Shown here piece by piece: positions 3,553 to 11,024 of a stretch of DNA of 64,000 nt. This DNA is from Achromobacter sp. B7 (GTDB lineage: Bacteria; Pseudomonadota; Gammaproteobacteria; Burkholderiales; Burkholderiaceae_B). A model generated the notes under the pieces. It searched no databases. It saw only the letters and a list, made by a program, of their open reading frames with translations, and was not told the origin of the DNA. Positions within the stretch are counted from its first letter, which is position 1. Each line of letters begins with the position of its first letter. The stretch spans positions 558,001-622,000 of the forward strand of contig NZ_CP032084.1 in NCBI RefSeq assembly GCF_003600685.1. Reading direction: 5' to 3'. The position numbers and the translations under genes were made by a program.

Positions 3553-4641
3553 TCAGGCCTGCTTGCGCGGGAACACCCACACCTTGCTGGCCGGCAGGGC
3601 CAGGCGGCTGGGGCCGGGTTCGCGGCCTTCGGGACCATAGGCGCGCAGCGCCAGGGTGTTGGCCGGGTCCGCGTCGGGCGTGCGGAACAGGTATTCCCAG
3701 CGGTCGCCCAGGTACATGCTGGTCAACAGCGGCATGTCGATGTGGTTGCCGTCGGGGTCGTCCGCCAGGCGCACTTGTTCAACCCGGATCACGGCGGTGC
3801 CGTCCTGGCCGGCCGACACGCCTTCGCCCGCCTTGCCCCACAGCGCCCAGCCACGGCCCTCGATGCGGGCACGGCCATCGCGCACTTCGGTGACCTTGCC
3901 TTCCAGCCGGTTGTTGCTGCCCATGAATTCCGCCGTGAACAGCGTGGACGGCGAGCCGTACATTTCCTGCGGCGTACCCTGCTGTTCGATCTTGCCGTTG
4001 TTCAGCAGCAGGATGCGGTCGGAAATGGCCATGGCTTCGCTCTGGTCATGCGTCACCATCAGGGCCGACAGCCCCAGGCGGATGATCAGTTCACGCAGGA
4101 AGGCGCGGGCTTCTTCGCGCAGCTTGGCGTCCAGGTTGGACAGCGGCTCGTCCAGCAGGATGACGGGCGGGCTGTACACCAGCGCCCGGCCGATGGCCAC
4201 GCGCTGTTGCTGGCCACCCGACAGCGCATGCGGATGGCGCTGGCCCAGCTTGCCCAGGCCCAGCTGGTCCAGCACGGCCTGCACGCGTTCGCGCACTTCG
4301 GCCGACGGCACCTTGCGCAACTTCAGCGGGTAGGCCACGTTTTCAAACACGGTCTTGTGCGGCCACAGCGCGTAAGACTGGAACACCAGGCCCAGGTTGC
4401 GCTCTTCGGCCGGAATCTCCTTGCGCGCGCCGCCGTCATAGACGATGCGATCGCCAATGGTGATGCGGCCGCGCTTGGGGCCTTCCAGCCCGGCCACGGC
4501 GCGCAGCAGCGTGGTCTTGCCGCTACCCGAGGGGCCCAGCAGCGACACCACTTCGCCTTGGCGCAATTGCATCGACACGCCCTTCAGCACGGGGTTGTCG
4601 CCGTAGTCCAGGTGCAGGTCTTCTACAGAAAGCTCAATCAT
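3553..4641 (-). CDS. ABC importer ATPase, ferric-iron/AfuC-FbpC type
   Basis: Cytoplasmic ATPase that powers the importer formed with the next two genes. The 362-residue protein has Walker A GPSGSGKTT (36-44), signature LSGGQQQR (from 140), Walker B ILLDEP (161-166), the H-loop MVTHDQ and a C-terminal TOBE-like regulatory domain (about 240-355), the layout of the FbpC/AfuC/PotA class. It overlaps the permease gene by 8 bases, so the operon order is binding protein, permease, ATPase. The substrate cannot be read from the ATPase: iron is the class default, but polyamines, thiamine or phosphonates are carried by close relatives. Confidence 0.9.
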   Translation of the reverse strand: MIELSVEDLHLDYGDNPVLKGVSMQLRQGEVVSLLGPSGSGKTTLLRAVAGLEGPKRGRITIGDRIVYDGGARKEIPAEERNLGLVFQSYALWPHKTVFENVAYPLKLRKVPSAEVRERVQAVLDQLGLGKLGQRHPHALSGGQQQRVAIGRALVYSPPVILLDEPLSNLDAKLREEARAFLRELIIRLGLSALMVTHDQSEAMAISDRILLLNNGKIEQQGTPQEMYGSPSTLFTAEFMGSNNRLEGKVTEVRDGRARIEGRGWALWGKAGEGVSAGQDGTAVIRVEQVRLADDPDGNHIDMPLLTSMYLGDRWEYLFRTPDADPANTLALRAYGPEGREPGPSRLALPASKVWVFPRKQA

Positions 4642-6412
4642 GAAGTTTGACTCCGAATCGCAGGGCGATGCCCAGGCCGATCACGACCAGAACGATATTG
4701 ATGAAGGAAAGCGCGGCCACGATGTCGATGGCGCCCGAGGCCCACAGCGACACCAGCATGGAACCGATGGTTTCCGTGCCGGGCGACAGCAGGTAGACGC
4801 CGGTGGAGTATTCGCGCTCGAAGATCAGGAACATCAGCAGCCATGAACCGATCAGGCCGTACTTGGCCAGCGGCACCGTCACGTGGCGTGTGACCTGGCC
4901 GCGGCGCGCGCCGGCGCTGCGGGCGGCCTCTTCCAGTTCGGGGCCCACTTGCAGCAGGGTCGACGAAATCAAGCGCAGCCCGTAAGCCATCCAGACCACC
5001 GTGTAGGCCAGCCACACGCTGAAGATGGTGCTGCGCATGGCGCGCAGCCATTCGATGAAGTTCTCGCGCAGCCAGTCGGCGAACGGCAGCGCCGACAGCC
5101 AGCCGTTTTGGTCCACGTCCAGGGCGTTGTCCAGCCACATCGGCACAAACAGGAACACCCACAGGAAGGCCAGGCCGGCCAGCAGGCCGGGCACGGCGCG
5201 CGGCACCAACACGCTGTAGTCCATGAAGCGCGTCACGTTGTCGGGCTTGCGGTGCATGGCCAGGCCCACGAACATGTAGCACATCACCGCCAGCGCGCCG
5301 CCGAACACCCCGATGGCGACCGAGTTCACAATGGCGCGGATCAGGTTGGGCTGTGCGAAGACCGTACGGAAGGCGTCCAGCGACAGCACGTCGAACAGCG
5401 ACACGCCCATGCCCCAGTTGGACACGAACGCGCGCAGCAGCACGCCCAGCAGCGGCACGATGATGGTGACCACCAGCCAGAACGCCACGACCGCGCCCGC
5501 CGCCCAGCGCCACTTGCCCAACGGCAGCGGACGAGCGCGCGAGGCTTTGCCCTTGACGGTGACGAAGCGATTCGCGGTACGCATCAAACGGCGTTGCAGC
5601 ATCACCAGCGGAATCGTCATGCAGATCAGGATCACGGCCACGGCGGCCATCAGGTGATACGACGGAATGCCCAGCTTGTTGGTCAGCTTGTACAGGTACG
5701 TGGCCAGCACCAGGTTGCCTTCGGGGTCACCCAGCACCAGCACCAGGCCGAACACCTCCAGGCCCAGGAAGAACAGCAGCACGGTGGCGTACAGCATGGC
5801 CGGGCGCACCATCGGCAGGCTGACCGACACCATCACGCGCAGCGGCGACGCGCCGGCCACGCGAGCCGCTTCTTCCACGTCGGAGCCCATGCTGCGCAGC
5901 GCCGACGAGATATACAGGTACGCGTGCGGCACGTGCGTCAGGCCGGCGATGATGACGATGCTGGTCAGCGAATAGACGTTCCAGGGCACGAAGCCCAGGA
6001 TGTTCTGCGCCCAGATCGAGAAAAAGCCCACCGGGCCGGCGGCCACGACGTAGCCAAAGCCCAGCACCATGGGTGACACGAACACCGGCACCAGGATCAG
6101 CGGTTCGATCCAGCGGCGGCCGGGCAGGTCGGTGCGGATCATCAGGAAGGCCAGCATGCCGCCTAGCGGAATGGCGATGATGGCCAGCCCGAAGGCCAGG
6201 ATGAAGCCGCTTTTCAGCGCCTTGTAGAAATCCGGGTCCGCGAAGATGAAGCGGAACGCGTCCAGGCTGAAAACCTTGGACGGGGCAAAGAAGGGCGCGG
6301 ATAGAAAGCTTTGGACGATGATGAACGACAACGGCACATAGATGGCGAGGGCCGTAATCAACACCACCACGCCGCGCGGCAGGGACTGCCATTTTCTGCG
6401 CAATGACTGCAT
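4634..6412 (-). CDS. ABC importer permease, two fused FbpB-type domains
   Basis: Inner-membrane channel of the importer. The 592-residue protein contains two tandem binding-protein-dependent permease domains, about twelve membrane segments, each with its own EAA loop for ATPase contact (EEAARVAGASPLRV in the first half, EEAARSAGARRGQV in the second). The single-chain two-domain form is typical of FbpB/AfuB/SfuB. An AGGA ribosome-binding site precedes the ATG. It is separated from the upstream binding-protein gene by 151 GC-rich bases with a strong hairpin, and it overlaps the ATPase gene. Confidence 0.92.
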   Translation of the reverse strand: MQSLRRKWQSLPRGVVVLITALAIYVPLSFIIVQSFLSAPFFAPSKVFSLDAFRFIFADPDFYKALKSGFILAFGLAIIAIPLGGMLAFLMIRTDLPGRRWIEPLILVPVFVSPMVLGFGYVVAAGPVGFFSIWAQNILGFVPWNVYSLTSIVIIAGLTHVPHAYLYISSALRSMGSDVEEAARVAGASPLRVMVSVSLPMVRPAMLYATVLLFFLGLEVFGLVLVLGDPEGNLVLATYLYKLTNKLGIPSYHLMAAVAVILICMTIPLVMLQRRLMRTANRFVTVKGKASRARPLPLGKWRWAAGAVVAFWLVVTIIVPLLGVLLRAFVSNWGMGVSLFDVLSLDAFRTVFAQPNLIRAIVNSVAIGVFGGALAVMCYMFVGLAMHRKPDNVTRFMDYSVLVPRAVPGLLAGLAFLWVFLFVPMWLDNALDVDQNGWLSALPFADWLRENFIEWLRAMRSTIFSVWLAYTVVWMAYGLRLISSTLLQVGPELEEAARSAGARRGQVTRHVTVPLAKYGLIGSWLLMFLIFEREYSTGVYLLSPGTETIGSMLVSLWASGAIDIVAALSFINIVLVVIGLGIALRFGVKLHD

Positions 6413-6526
6413 GGGGAAATCCTGTATTCAAAGTGACGCGACGGTCGCGCCGCCCGGGTAGGGGCAGGCCCGCCCGGGGGGCGGTCAGGCGGGCGGCAGG
6501 CTGCCGTCCGCTACGCGTATGGGGCG

Positions 6527-6551
6527 CCGGGGCGGGCGCGCCGCGCCCCGG
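6527..6551 (-). other. Intra-operon hairpin between binding-protein and permease genes
   Basis: Perfect 8-bp arms CCGGGGCG/CGCCCCGG with a 9-base loop lie 13 bases after the binding-protein stop and 115 bases before the permease start. There is no T-run on the transcribed strand, so it resembles the hairpins that protect upstream mRNA and let the binding protein be made in excess over the membrane subunits. That role is an inference. Confidence 0.45.
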
Positions 6552-6563
6552 ACCCGCGCGGCC

Positions 6564-7661
6564 TTACTTGCCGGCCGCGGCGCGCCAGTCCTTGATGAAC
6601 TGAAGGCGCTTGGTCTGCTCAAGGTAGTCCAGCAGCGTTTCGTTGACCGGAATCGGCTTGAGCGAGGCGCCCAGCTTCTTGGTCATGCCGTCCACATCGT
6701 TGTCGCCGTCGATGTCATCGCGCACCGAGGCCAGGTCGGCCTGGTTGGCCATGATTTCCTGGCCCTTCCTGGACAGCAGGTAGTCCATCCACAGCTTGGC
6801 GGCGTTGCGGTTCTTGGCCTTCTTGCTGATGAACGCCACGCGCGACAGCACCAGCGCGTAGTCGGTCGGGTAGGCCACGCCCAGCGACGGGTCGGACTTG
6901 GCGCGGGTTTCGGCGTACGAACCCAGGATGTTGTAGCCGATCAGGTTTTCACCCGAGGACACGCGTTCCATCATGGTGCCGGTGGACGATTGCACGACCA
7001 GGCCGCCCTTGGCGATGTCTTTCAGCGTGTCGAAATACTTGGGGTCGTTGGCCTTGTCCTGCACGGCCAGCATGAAGCCCACGGCCGACTTTTCGATGTC
7101 GTAGGTGGTGACCTTGTTCTTGAACTTGTCGGGCTGGCTGGCAATCAGCTTGGCCAGCGCGCCGTGCGTGGTGGGCACTTCGGCGGCGGGGATCAGGCGC
7201 TTGTTGTAGATGAACACGGCCGGCTCGTAGGTCGTGCCGTAGGCCGAATCCTTCCAGACGGCCCAGGCCGGCAGCTTGCCGGCTTCGGGCGACTTGTATT
7301 GCAGCGCGTAGTCGGTGGCCAGCTTCAGGGCCGAATCCATCGACGAGCTCCAGACGATGTCGCCGCTACCGCCGCCCGCCGCCTGCTCGCTGATGTAGCG
7401 GTTGTAGAGCTCGGTGCTGTTCATGTCGTTGTATTCGACCTTGACGTCCGGATACAGCGCTTCGAAGCCCTTGATGATGGGGCCGGCGGCCTTGGTGTCG
7501 GTGGTCGAATAGATGACGACCTTGCCTTCCTTCTTGGCGCCGTCCAGGATCTTTTGATAGTCGGCCGGGTAACCCGCCGGCACGGCCTGCGCGAAGGCGC
7601 TGCCGGTGGCGATGGCGAAAGCTGCGGCGCAGGCGGCCGCCAGTTGGGACTTGGCAAGCAT
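6564..7661 (-). CDS. ABC importer periplasmic substrate-binding protein (COG1840/FbpA-like)
   Basis: Periplasmic receptor of the importer. The 365-residue protein has a Sec signal peptide ending near GSAFA|QA and a type-2 periplasmic binding-protein fold of the FbpA/AfuA superfamily (VVIYSTTD start, LPAWAVWKDSAYG, YEPAVFIYNK, YNILGSYA). The paired tyrosines that bind iron in classical FbpA are not obvious, so iron is not assured as ligand, and no Fur-box-like sequence is visible upstream. A GGAG ribosome-binding site precedes the ATG. Its closest visible relative is the C-terminal half of the sensor kinase encoded immediately upstream. Confidence 0.9.
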   Translation of the reverse strand: MLAKSQLAAACAAAFAIATGSAFAQAVPAGYPADYQKILDGAKKEGKVVIYSTTDTKAAGPIIKGFEALYPDVKVEYNDMNSTELYNRYISEQAAGGGSGDIVWSSSMDSALKLATDYALQYKSPEAGKLPAWAVWKDSAYGTTYEPAVFIYNKRLIPAAEVPTTHGALAKLIASQPDKFKNKVTTYDIEKSAVGFMLAVQDKANDPKYFDTLKDIAKGGLVVQSSTGTMMERVSSGENLIGYNILGSYAETRAKSDPSLGVAYPTDYALVLSRVAFISKKAKNRNAAKLWMDYLLSRKGQEIMANQADLASVRDDIDGDNDVDGMTKKLGASLKPIPVNETLLDYLEQTKRLQFIKDWRAAAGK

Positions 7662-7766
7662 GTGTTCGTCTCCGATTGGAATTGGTCTATAGCGGGATCT
7701 GGGTCCAGCCTGCGGCCATCTTAGGAGGCGGCGTCTGTCGTCGTCCTGTCATGGGGGCGATAAGCG

Positions 7767-7783
7767 GCTAGGGGTAATCCCTG
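7767..7783. promoter_or_regulatory. Imperfect inverted repeat upstream of importer operon
   Basis: CTAGGG-GTAAT-CCCTGG lies in the 139-base gap between the sensor-kinase stop and the binding-protein start. It is the only dyad I noticed in this gap and could be a regulator-binding site or a weak terminator of the kinase gene. Nothing here proves that the adjacent response regulator binds it. Confidence 0.25.
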
Positions 7784-7800
7784 GCCTTGCCGCGCCCGGC

Positions 7801-10287
7801 CTACGGCCGCTTGGGCGTGTCCGTCACCAGCCGCACCCAGTTCTGCACGAAGCGCGAATGCCGTCGCTGGTCCAGCCCCACCAGCAATGCCGGGCTTAAC
7901 ACCACCGGCTGCACGATGCCTTGCGAGCGCGCCAGCACGGCCTCGGAGGTCCAGCGGCCCGGCGTGTCTTCCATGATGGAACCCAGCGCCGCGTGGCTGG
8001 ACGCCACCTGCTGGCCGGCCGGAGACAGCAGCCAGTCCACCAGCGCGCGCGCCAGATCGGGGCTGGGCGCGCGCCGCGAGATCAGCACCGACCGCGCCAG
8101 CACCAGCACATAGTCCTGCGGAAACACCACGCCGATCTTGCTGCCGGCGGCCTGGCGCGACAGGGCGTATGAACCCAGGATGTTGTAGGCCAGGTCCAGT
8201 TCGTCGTTCTCGATGGCGTCCAGAATCTGCGCGCTGGTGGGCGACAGCCGCACGCCCACTTGCCCCATCGCGTTGGCCAGCCCCCAGAAGTTGGACGACA
8301 CCAGTTCGTCTTGCTCGGCCAGCAGATAGCCCAGGCTGCTGGCGGCGATGTCGTAGGTGCCGACACGGCCTTGCAGGCTGGCTTGCTCGCGTTCCAGCAG
8401 GCGCAGGATGTCCTGCCGCGAGCGCGGCACGGTGGCCTCGGTAAAACGCTTGGGGTTGTAGACGATGACGGCCGGTTCGAACGTGAAGCCGTAGACCTCG
8501 TTGCGCCAGACCGCCCACGACGGCAGCTTGGACGCGTAGGGCGACGAGTACGCCTGCGCATAGCCGTCGTTGGCCAGCCGGATCTGCAAGTCCGACGCCG
8601 AACTCATCAGCACGTCTACGTTTTTCAGGCGCCCGTCCACGGTCGCTTCGTACAGGTCGCGGCTGCTGATTTCGCGATACACCACCGACACGTCGGGTCG
8701 CAATGATTGAAAGCCCTGGATCAGCGGCGCGACGACGGGCGTGTCCGTGGGCCCGGCGATGACCAGTGTGCGCGACGTGGGCTGCGGCGCGGGGTAGCGC
8801 GTGACGATTTCGTCCAGATCGGCCGCGCGCGCATCCTGCGGGGCGGACACCAGCAGCATCGCCGCCGTGCACGCCGCGCCCAGCCACGCCGCCACGTTGC
8901 GTCCGGCCGGCTGTTGTTGCAGCGGCAGGATGACGCGCGCGGACAGGCCGCCGCCCGGCCGATCATGCAGCCATAGCGACCCCCCGTGCGCCGTCGCCAC
9001 CGAACGCACGATGGCCAGCCCCAGGCCAGATCCCGGCTGCGACTCGCCAGCCCGTCCGCGCGTAAAGCGCTGCTGCACGGCTTCTTTTTCGTCGTCCGAA
9101 ATGCCCGGCCCGCGATCGGACACCGTCAACGCCACGCGGAAACCGGCTACCGGCGTGGCCTGGATGTCCACCGTGCCGTCGGGCGCATAGCGCAAGGCGT
9201 TGTCCACCAGGTTGCGCAGCATCTCGCGCAAGGCCACCCGGTCACCGGCCAGTCGCGCGCGGCGCACTTCCGGCGCGATCTCGATGCGCAGGCGCTCGGC
9301 TTCCACCGGGCCGATGCGTCGGCGCGTTTCGTTGATGGTCTCGGCCACGCCCACGGATTCCGGTGGCCCCTTGCCCAGCCGGTGCGTGATGGTGGCGTCC
9401 ATCAGCAGCTGGTTGATCAGCTGGCTGGCATGCGTGGCGTTCTGGTGAATGCGTACGATGCGTTCGCGCAGCCGCTTGGGGTCGGTCTCGTCCAGCGCCA
9501 CTTCGGCTTGCGCGCGCAGCGAGGCCAGTGGCGTGCGGACCTGATGCGTGGCGTCGGCCACCAGCGTGTTCAGCGTGTCCATGATGATGGACAGGCGCTG
9601 CATGAAGGCGTTCAACGCTACGACCAGGCGGCGCACTTCGCGCGGTACGGGCGTGGTCACGGGCGTCAGGTCTTCGGGGGCGCGGGTGCGCAGGTCGCGT
9701 TCCAGCACGGCCAGCGGCGCAAACGCGCGCTGCACGCCAAACCACAACAGGCCCAGCGCCACCAACGACACCACCACCAGCGGCAGGACGCCACGCCCCA
9801 GTATTTCGTCGGCCAGTTCATCCCGCGACCCCAGGGTCTCGGCCACCCGCACCGTGACCCAGCCGGCATGCTGGCTGGCCGACACCAGCCGCCCCACGGT
9901 CGCCACGCGCACCGGCTCGTCGTGGTAGGTGACGTAGGCGAACACCGGCGTGGCGGCTTGCGCCAGCGGCAGCTTGGGCGCCAGGTCGCCATAGCCGGTG
10001 ATGAGGTGACCATTGGAGGTGCGCGCTTCGTAAAAGACCCGTTCGCCGCCCGACAGCATGGCCAGCGACGACACTGGCGGCTCGACGGTGACGCCTTCGT
10101 CATCGATCTGCACGGACCCCGCAATGGTCAGCGCCGACGCGGCAAGCAGGCGGTCGAACGCCTGCTCGGCGGCGCGCTGGGCATAACCCCGCAGGAAAAA
10201 AACCAGCCCGATCAGCGCGCAGGCCAGCAGCGCCGCGCCCAAGGTGAAGACGCGGCGCCGGATCGAGGCGCTTTCAGGGATGTTCAT
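7801..10287 (-). CDS. Sensor histidine kinase with C-terminal periplasmic binding-protein domain
   Basis: An 828-residue fusion in one uninterrupted frame. Residues 13-33 and 166-187 are membrane segments flanking a periplasmic sensor region. A HAMP-like linker follows, then the phospho-acceptor helix ATHQVRTPLASLR (H248), the N-box LRNLVDNALRYA, G1 DRGPGI and G2 GSGLGLAI, a complete TctE-like kinase core ending near residue 456. The chain then continues into a hydrophobic stretch (464-485) with a signal-peptide-like end DARA|AD and a full solute-binding protein (490-828) sharing LPSWAVWR, FEPAVIVYN and YNILGSYA with the importer's binding protein next door. The kinase start overlaps the response-regulator gene by 14 bases. 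The ligand is unknown. Confidence 0.93.
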   Translation of the reverse strand: MNIPESASIRRRVFTLGAALLACALIGLVFFLRGYAQRAAEQAFDRLLAASALTIAGSVQIDDEGVTVEPPVSSLAMLSGGERVFYEARTSNGHLITGYGDLAPKLPLAQAATPVFAYVTYHDEPVRVATVGRLVSASQHAGWVTVRVAETLGSRDELADEILGRGVLPLVVVSLVALGLLWFGVQRAFAPLAVLERDLRTRAPEDLTPVTTPVPREVRRLVVALNAFMQRLSIIMDTLNTLVADATHQVRTPLASLRAQAEVALDETDPKRLRERIVRIHQNATHASQLINQLLMDATITHRLGKGPPESVGVAETINETRRRIGPVEAERLRIEIAPEVRRARLAGDRVALREMLRNLVDNALRYAPDGTVDIQATPVAGFRVALTVSDRGPGISDDEKEAVQQRFTRGRAGESQPGSGLGLAIVRSVATAHGGSLWLHDRPGGGLSARVILPLQQQPAGRNVAAWLGAACTAAMLLVSAPQDARAADLDEIVTRYPAPQPTSRTLVIAGPTDTPVVAPLIQGFQSLRPDVSVVYREISSRDLYEATVDGRLKNVDVLMSSASDLQIRLANDGYAQAYSSPYASKLPSWAVWRNEVYGFTFEPAVIVYNPKRFTEATVPRSRQDILRLLEREQASLQGRVGTYDIAASSLGYLLAEQDELVSSNFWGLANAMGQVGVRLSPTSAQILDAIENDELDLAYNILGSYALSRQAAGSKIGVVFPQDYVLVLARSVLISRRAPSPDLARALVDWLLSPAGQQVASSHAALGSIMEDTPGRWTSEAVLARSQGIVQPVVLSPALLVGLDQRRHSRFVQNWVRLVTDTPKRP

Positions 10288-10945
10288 GGCTGCGGGCCTG
10301 ATAGCCGACGCCGCGCACGGTGATGATGTCGATCGACGCGCCCGCCAGCTTCTTGCGCAGCCGCGAGATCAACAGTTCCAGCGCGTTCAGCGAACCGTCG
10401 TCCAGGTCGAACAGCTGGTTCATCAGCCGCTCTTTCGCCACGGTCTGGCCAATGCGGCCCACCAGGATCTCAAGCAGGCGGAATTCGCGCCGGCCCAGTT
10501 CCAGCGGTGTACCCGCCAGCGTCACGCTGCGCCCGGCCAGGTCCAGGCTTAGATTGCCGTAGGAGGTGGTGCTGCTGGTTTGCCCGGCCGGCCGGCGCAT
10601 CAGCGCGCGCAGCCGCGCCTCAAGTTCACGCAGGTCGAAGGGCTTGACCAGATAGTCGTCCGCGCCCAGGTCCAGCATGTCGATCTTGTCTTCGATTTCA
10701 GCGCGCGCGGTCATGACCAGCACCGGCGCTTCCAGCCCGGCGGCGCGCAATTCACGGATGACCGAGAAGCCATCCTTGCCGGGCAGGTTGATGTCCAGCA
10801 CCAGGGCGTCCCAGGTTTCGTCCAGGCCCCAGCGCAAGGCCGCGACGCCGTCGCGCACCCATTGCACGCTGTGGCCGGCCGACCGCAGCTTGCTCTCCAC
10901 CGCATCGCCCAGATCAAGGTTGTCCTCGACCAGCAAAATGCGCAT
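10274..10945 (-). CDS. OmpR/TctD-family response regulator
   Basis: Partner of the fused sensor kinase. The 223-residue protein has a receiver domain with the acidic pocket ED (7-8), phospho-acceptor D51 in LVLDINLPG, the conserved T and K (MTAR, VKPFD), and a winged-helix DNA-binding domain (ELGRREFRLLEILV to TVRGVGYQ). ATG at 10945 is chosen because GGAG lies just before it and the receiver begins MRILLVEDN, while an upstream in-frame ATG at 10999 would add a basic tail. By position it probably controls the adjacent importer operon. Confidence 0.93.
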   Translation of the reverse strand: MRILLVEDNLDLGDAVESKLRSAGHSVQWVRDGVAALRWGLDETWDALVLDINLPGKDGFSVIRELRAAGLEAPVLVMTARAEIEDKIDMLDLGADDYLVKPFDLRELEARLRALMRRPAGQTSSTTSYGNLSLDLAGRSVTLAGTPLELGRREFRLLEILVGRIGQTVAKERLMNQLFDLDDGSLNALELLISRLRKKLAGASIDIITVRGVGYQARSHEHP

Positions 10946-10972
10946 GTTGCGTCTCCGTCTTGTTATGGTCCT

Positions 10973-11024
10973 CTGCCGCGGGCAACCCCTCTTGCGCAAT
11001 GGCGGGAGGGGCTGCCCGCGGCAG
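10973..11024. repeat. Long hairpin between RNase II-like gene and response-regulator gene
   Basis: A 12-bp perfect stem (CTGCCGCGGGCA/TGCCCGCGGCAG) is extended by a second 6-bp stem (CCCCTC/GAGGGG). The T-run needed for an intrinsic terminator (11030-11035) is on the plus-strand side, whereas the flanking genes are both on minus. It could block antisense transcription, end the RNase transcript without a T-run, or structure the response-regulator leader. Confidence 0.5.

Follow-up and report, generated by a model that had tools for sequence, protein, structure and literature searches.

A single gene in the window, that is, the 64,000-nucleotide stretch of the Achromobacter sp. B7 genome analysed here, encodes a TctE-like sensor histidine kinase whose chain runs on without interruption into a solute-binding protein (SBP) of full length. 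The product is likely to be a polyprotein, split by signal peptidase I into a TctE-like kinase and an SBP that is free in the periplasm and signals the presence of ligand to the kinase; we infer the cleavage, the ligand, the contact between SBP and kinase, and the regulated target.

The Fused Gene and Its Neighbors

The fused gene, its domains and the neighboring genes are as follows (residues refer to the fusion protein; all features lie on the minus strand).

7801–10287, minus: fused kinase–SBP gene, a single frame with a stop codon (828 amino acids, ATG start)
9802–10221, minus: 2CSK_N periplasmic sensor domain, residues 23–162 (Pfam, E 3e-34; overlaps the end of TM1)
9736–9789, minus: TM2, approximately residues 167–184 (from the sequence; within helix 153–188 of the predicted structure)
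9385–9573, minus: HisKA, residues 239–301, phospho-acceptor H248 (Pfam)
8917–9246, minus: HATPase_c, residues 348–457 (Pfam)
8824–8916, minus: internal signal-peptide-like junction, residues 458–488 (from the sequence; model pLDDT <50 for 460–490)
8824–8832, minus: predicted signal peptidase I site, A486-R487-A488 / A489 (from column conservation in orthologues)
7804–8823, minus: SBP half, residues 489–828, MctA-like (fold and sequence comparison)
10274–10945, minus: OmpR/TctD-type response regulator (Response_reg and Trans_reg_C), upstream of the fusion gene and overlapping it by 14 nt
6564–7661, minus: second, separate SBP gene, presumed transport SBP (33% identity to the fused SBP)
4634–6412, minus: ABC permease, 592 amino acids (BPD_transp_1, two stretches)
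3553–4641, minus: ABC ATPase, 362 amino acids (ABC_tran)

The Pfam domains of the fusion protein all score above their gathering thresholds, and the SBP match spans residues 509–764, C-terminal to HATPase_c. The order 2CSK_N, HisKA, HATPase_c, together with the catalytic residues, is that of a TctE-like sensor kinase; H248 and the residues of the N, G1, and G2 motifs are invariant among 45 aligned fused orthologues. A sequence-only reading of this DNA had described a kinase fused in one frame, through a hydrophobic segment, to a C-terminal binding protein. Both the segment and the fusion are real, and the latter is conserved across genera and in two bacterial classes. In a full-length AlphaFold2 model, both halves are confidently predicted; the low pLDDT of residues 460–490 (<50) and the pTM of 0.62 make the model uninformative on whether the halves are tethered or dock to each other. 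A fold search with this model returned, among the matches listed, SBP folds only.

The best NCBIfam model for the regulator is TctD; the score of 205.7 bits falls short of the model's cut-off, 337, and the regulator is therefore called TctD-like rather than TctD. Its open reading frame as listed (10274–10999) has a TTG start; the start at 10945 was chosen from the usual receiver N-terminus. The second SBP, the ABC permease, and the ABC ATPase all lie downstream of the fusion on the same strand. The top PDB match of the second SBP is 7f6e (4e-78), MctA by its PDB title, and the SBP of this transporter reaches neither the 2-aminoethylphosphonate nor the ferric equivalog cut-off of NCBIfam. Judged by sequence, the transporter encoded at 3553–7661 is more likely to be a metal-citrate-type importer than an iron or phosphonate importer.

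The Junction Has the Anatomy of a Cleavable Signal Peptide

A total of 107 fused frames were assembled, all unbroken, of which 92 are non-identical. The linker from P455, where the ATPase domain ends, to the first strand of the SBP (L508) varies in sequence and in length, from about 45 to about 115 residues, and despite this drift the fused orthologues retain a hydrophobic stretch with a signal-peptidase-like site behind it. The elements of the junction occur in the order positive n-region, h-region, Pro or Gly, and small-x-Ala. Among the 45 aligned orthologues, A488 is the sole invariant column between L448 and G512: position −1 is Ala in all 45, and position −3 is Ala in 27, Val in 10, Thr, Leu, or Gly in two each, and Ser or Pro in one each (A, V, T, S, G, or L in 44 of 45). 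Position −2 is occupied by 13 residue types; Pro or Gly is found within −7 to −4 in 42 orthologues, and Ala or Gln at +1 in 33. With its positive n-region, h-region, small residues at −3 and −1, and free −2, the junction fits the −3/−1 rule for signal peptidase I (Ala-X-Ala, −2 free) as set out in PMC9360617.

Since aligners can line up alanines, the motif count was repeated alignment-free on the 92 proteins. The loose motif [AVSTGLIC].A occurs downstream of the junction h-region in 91 of them, the exception being L076, and A.A occurs past it in 65. The corresponding counts are 35 and 4 of 92 for TM1, which has the same orientation as the junction, 57 and 49 of 92 for TM2, which has the opposite one, and 42 and 39 of 44 for the presumed signal peptides of separate SBP genes. 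TM2 is no substrate for signal peptidase because it runs the other way; its richness in both motifs means that the motif alone is not specific. The composite pattern [PG]-x(1-4)-[AVST]-x-A is present in 78 of 92 junctions against a mean of 46.7 in 1000 shuffles (sd 4.4, maximum 62), and the excess of A.A is modest (66 of 92 against 53.3, sd 4.0, maximum 66, a value attained by at least one of 1000 shuffles), the standard deviations in both cases being too small because the 92 sequences are related. In 83 of 91 junctions, a net positive charge precedes the h-region on its cytoplasmic flank. Release as a lipoprotein was also considered and rejected as a family feature, a simple lipobox being found in just 3 of 92 junctions. 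Long inserts lie past the predicted cut site in L027, L035, L036, and L037 (with low-complexity repeats in L037) and ahead of the hydrophobic stretch in L032 and L033.

The permanent third membrane crossing that a C-terminal SBP had been thought to require is probably wrong, since the junction retains the anatomy of a Sec signal peptide; the profile of the segment is that of a cleavable one with a conserved signal peptidase I site. Release of the SBP is accordingly the more likely outcome, and the main rival is an uncleaved third transmembrane helix, by which the SBP would stay attached to the kinase and sense in cis. The mean peak hydrophobicity of the junction (2.36) exceeds that of the presumed signal peptides of separate SBPs (1.89), so that a stable anchor is possible in some members; L076 has no clear cleavage site, and uncleaved signal sequences can anchor exported proteins, as stated in PMC9360617. 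However, the junction is less hydrophobic than TM1 (3.05) and TM2 (2.78), and a tether would give no reason to keep Ala at −1 in 45 of 45 orthologues, a small residue at −3, and Pro or Gly at −7 to −4 in a linker that otherwise drifts. A tethered receptor is thus considered unlikely. It is doubtful, too, that cleavage is partial or regulated, with tethered (cis) and cleaved (trans) forms coexisting and the efficiency of signal peptidase setting the gain or memory of the sensor; if true, this would constitute a bacterial receptor class in which proteolysis at an internal signal peptide switches the architecture.

The SBP might also, or mainly, be translated from an internal start codon, in which case the junction would be an ordinary N-terminal signal peptide and the fusion an incidental read-through. 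In-frame ATG, GTG, or TTG codons do lie 18–45 codons ahead of the site in 40 of the 45 rows, 12 rows have a start with a Shine-Dalgarno-like tetramer upstream, the window gene has a GTG at −23, and in two split relatives (L009 and L130, see below) the start of the SBP gene overlaps the stop of the kinase gene. However, an ATG with such a tetramer is found in only 2 of the 45, five (L010, L025, L029, L083, and L086) have no start codon at all, the GTG is the only candidate in the window gene and has no tetramer, and no start position is conserved in the 28 junctions inspected. Credible internal starts are so scarce that the SBP seems to be made mainly within the long chain, and an internal start as its source appears highly unlikely.

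The SBP Half, Its Probable Ligand and the Adjacent Transporters

Structure comparison assigns the SBP half an MctA-like fold. The FbpA/AfuA superfamily label given by the sequence-only reading is correct at the level of the fold; among solved structures for which a ligand is stated, the nearest is MctA, which binds metal-citrate. With the MctA ligand positions taken from the titles of PDB entries, the corresponding residues are kept in nearly all aligned orthologues (D515 45/45, S563 43/45, S650 45/45, S/T685 42/45, Y707 43/45); thus, five of the six positions mutated in those entries have the same or a similar residue (T199 corresponding to S/T), and S26 is not conserved.

The transporters beside the fusion differ between the two classes. 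An ABC permease is found at 37 of 38 intact betaproteobacterial loci, the exception (L058) being cut short, and a second SBP of at least 60% identity at all 38. At the 40 alphaproteobacterial loci, a number that includes L092, counted there by its sequence, neither the beta-type ABC permease nor the second SBP of this family is found at any locus, and TctA and TctC of the tripartite tricarboxylate transporter are encoded at 30 and 29, respectively. TctA is absent from ten of these loci, of which five have full flanks (L080, L104, L107, L111, and L116); the flanks are shorter at the other five (L079, L099, L106, L112, and L115). Pfam searches with ten neighboring proteins of L080, L104, and L107 found no transporter family, and three of the proteins had no match at all. 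In two Devosia loci without an adjacent TctA, genes for a UxaC-like isomerase and an APH_6_hur-family kinase lie upstream of the regulator–fusion pair (L104, 2259–4920; L107, 2215–4766), and a UxaC-like gene is also present in L080. Among the related systems in which kinase and SBP are separate genes, CitMHS lies alongside L009, L130, L131, and L136–L139, TctA and TctC beside L132 and L135, and L134 is accompanied by TctC only; L133, the stretch of which begins at a contig end, has none of the transporters searched for. The association of one sensor module with three transporter types, two named for citrate or tricarboxylate and one with an MctA-like SBP, suggests a shared ligand. Taken with the likeness to MctA and the five of six positions, these mostly citrate- or tricarboxylate-type neighbors indicate that the ligand of the SBP half is probably citrate-like, namely citrate, metal-citrate, or a related tricarboxylate.

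The resemblance of the SBP half to MctA, a transport SBP, also raises the notion that the released SBP serves mainly in transport and has no part in signaling. CitMHS carriers are not known to need an SBP. A mainly transport role without signaling is very improbable, given that a second SBP already lies beside the fusion at 38 of 38 beta loci, that TctA is encoded at 30 of the 40 alpha loci and TctC, the SBP of that transporter type, at 29, and that split systems pair an SBP and a kinase beside CitMHS.

Distribution and Origin of the Fusion

The fusion is widely kept. Kinase and SBP domains occur together in all 120 homologues listed, of 1371 found, and the closest named homologues among the matches listed are Achromobacter proteins. 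The source genome is a single contig of 6.24 Mb. In a family sample of 151 genomes, the fusion is unbroken at 28 of the 30 best loci, that of the source genome included; L026 lies at a contig edge, and L038 (genome G138) is spread over three frames, with breaks near query residues 435 and 715, by decay or assembly error. A scan of genome contigs gave 78 fused and two contig-end-cut loci among the best 80 of 583 confirmed stretches, and the regulator is present at 76 of the 78, the two misses (L090 and L115) being cut loci. The fusion is found in Achromobacter, Bordetella hinzii and relatives, Alcaligenes, Castellaniella, and Allopusillimonas, and at 50–55% identity it occurs in the Alphaproteobacteria Devosia, Pelagibacterium, Labrys, Aureimonas, Pararhizobium, Paracoccus, and Inquilinus. 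In a phylum sample (369 genomes, 7 matched) and a class sample (398 genomes, 47 matched), at a match threshold of E ≤ 1e-90, the full fusion was found only in the genome of the window, the alphaproteobacterial fusions coming instead from the genome-contig scan. When the SBP half of L034, the most divergent fusion, served as query, 165 proteins were retrieved, and 119 of the 120 listed have kinase and SBP domains; the sole exception, P0227 (459 amino acids), has SBP domains only, and no third architecture occurs among these 120. An alphaproteobacterial-type fusion with a TctA/TctC neighborhood was found in L092, the record of which is titled Mycobacterium sp. KBS0706; its junction is very similar to the one in Inquilinus limosus (L109), and misnaming or contamination of the genome is probable.

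A sequencing error at the junction had been named as one way in which the fusion could prove false; the frame is unbroken in 78 of the 80 best loci, with the other two at contig edges. Despite the one orthologue broken into three frames (L038), assembly error or gene decay is a negligible explanation against 107 unbroken frames from many genomes, which form one clade and conserve catalytic and ligand-site residues.

The same kinase and SBP types also occur as two adjacent genes in related systems, including a paralogue in the source genome (L009), for which the coordinates below are those of its own stretch.

7147–8676, minus: kinase of the split paralogue in the source genome
6057–7154, minus: SBP of the split paralogue, overlapping the kinase gene by 8 nt

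In L009, the regulator lies upstream and the CitMHS transporter gene is divergent; in L130, the kinase stop and the SBP start share 4 nt, and CitMHS and a Porin_O_P gene are divergent. The existence of close relatives with kinase and SBP as two genes had likewise been put forward as evidence against the fusion. Split relatives exist, the same-genome paralogue among them, and they are the more distant ones; close relatives are not split, and the fusion therefore stands. In both fused loci and split relatives, a dedicated SBP is encoded together with a kinase and a regulator. Most split pairs in the class and phylum samples lie on one strand and a few on opposite strands; L122/L132, L145, L150, and L168 have their kinase and SBP genes on opposite strands and still nearby, so that the pairing survives rearrangement. 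In a tree of the kinase half (78 rows), the 45 fused rows all group in a single clade (SH-aLRT 100*) that sits among split rows, and in a tree of the SBP half (81 rows) one change between fused and split suffices; both trees were built by a quick method, some of their branches are long, and their outgroup is doubtful. On the simplest reading of these sequences, one fusion event would lie behind all fused rows.

Proposed Mechanism and Relation to Known Systems

The most likely model is that the gene product is the polyprotein of a three-component system comprised of a response regulator, a kinase, and a sensory SBP. The TctE-like kinase would insert via two transmembrane helices, and the chain would then re-enter the Sec pathway at the internal signal peptide (approximately residues 458–488), so that the SBP half is exported. 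Cleavage by signal peptidase I after A488 would leave a membrane kinase whose short tail is the former signal peptide, and an SBP free in the periplasm, in a ratio of 1:1. The SBP would bind a citrate-like ligand, and the loaded SBP may dock on the periplasmic 2CSK_N domain of the kinase, altering phosphorylation of the adjacent regulator and hence control of the neighboring transporter.

TctE is an ordinary kinase that is not known to have an SBP half. The fusion system is similar to TctD-TctE in its 2CSK_N-HisKA-HATPase_c kinase, its TctD-like OmpR regulator, and the tctA-type genes beside 30 of 40 alpha fusions; unlike TctE, the fusion kinase runs on into an MctA-like SBP. TctD-TctE of P. 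aeruginosa responds to citric acid (PMC6403454). The HptASR system of Staphylococcus aureus is comparable in having a dedicated SBP, and differs in being three separate genes with a hexose-phosphate ligand. HptS belongs to a different kinase family from the fusion kinase. The secreted HptA is a ligand-binding protein that touches the periplasmic domain of HptS, and the regions in contact change when the ligand is bound (PMC8774646). By analogy with these precedents, the SBP half would report a citrate-like ligand to the 2CSK_N domain. The Foldseek match at rank 43 is 6lkg, which is titled only as a two-component signal protein and which we take to be HptA.

MctA itself (PDB 7f6e–7f6u) is a stand-alone protein titled as an ABC transporter protein, whereas in the fusion the SBP makes up the latter half of a kinase chain. 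Kinases of the BvgS/EvgS type, like the fusion, combine a periplasmic binding-protein fold and a histidine kinase in one chain. Their binding-protein domains are N-terminal to the kinase core and stay attached; by contrast, the fused SBP is C-terminal and lies beyond an export signal. The FbcH cytochrome b/c1 polyprotein of Bradyrhizobium is cut at an internal signal sequence, in which it resembles the proposed polyprotein, although FbcH belongs to a respiratory complex and not to a sensor. Many SBP-activated kinases are encoded beside the SBP gene (PMC11113362), and a survey of Azospirillum kinases counts SBP_bac_1 as an uncommon input domain (PMC4618731), so the kinase–SBP architecture may have been counted before. 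The parts and the logic of the system are known, and among the open-access papers (PMC) listed no description was found of a kinase with a C-terminal SBP, of a sensor polyprotein, or of polyprotein delivery.

Implications

Sensor kinases that listen to an SBP are known, and the balance of the two partners is rarely addressed. In this family, selection seems to have made a two-gene sensor into one polyprotein, with an export signal and a cutting site kept across two classes. If this is true, the fusion would provide a natural 1:1 sensor pair and an unusual bacterial signaling polyprotein, which surveys of domain architecture would misread as a three-pass receptor. For the pairing of kinase and SBP, which is widespread, the family moreover supplies a citrate-type candidate ligand that can be tested directly.
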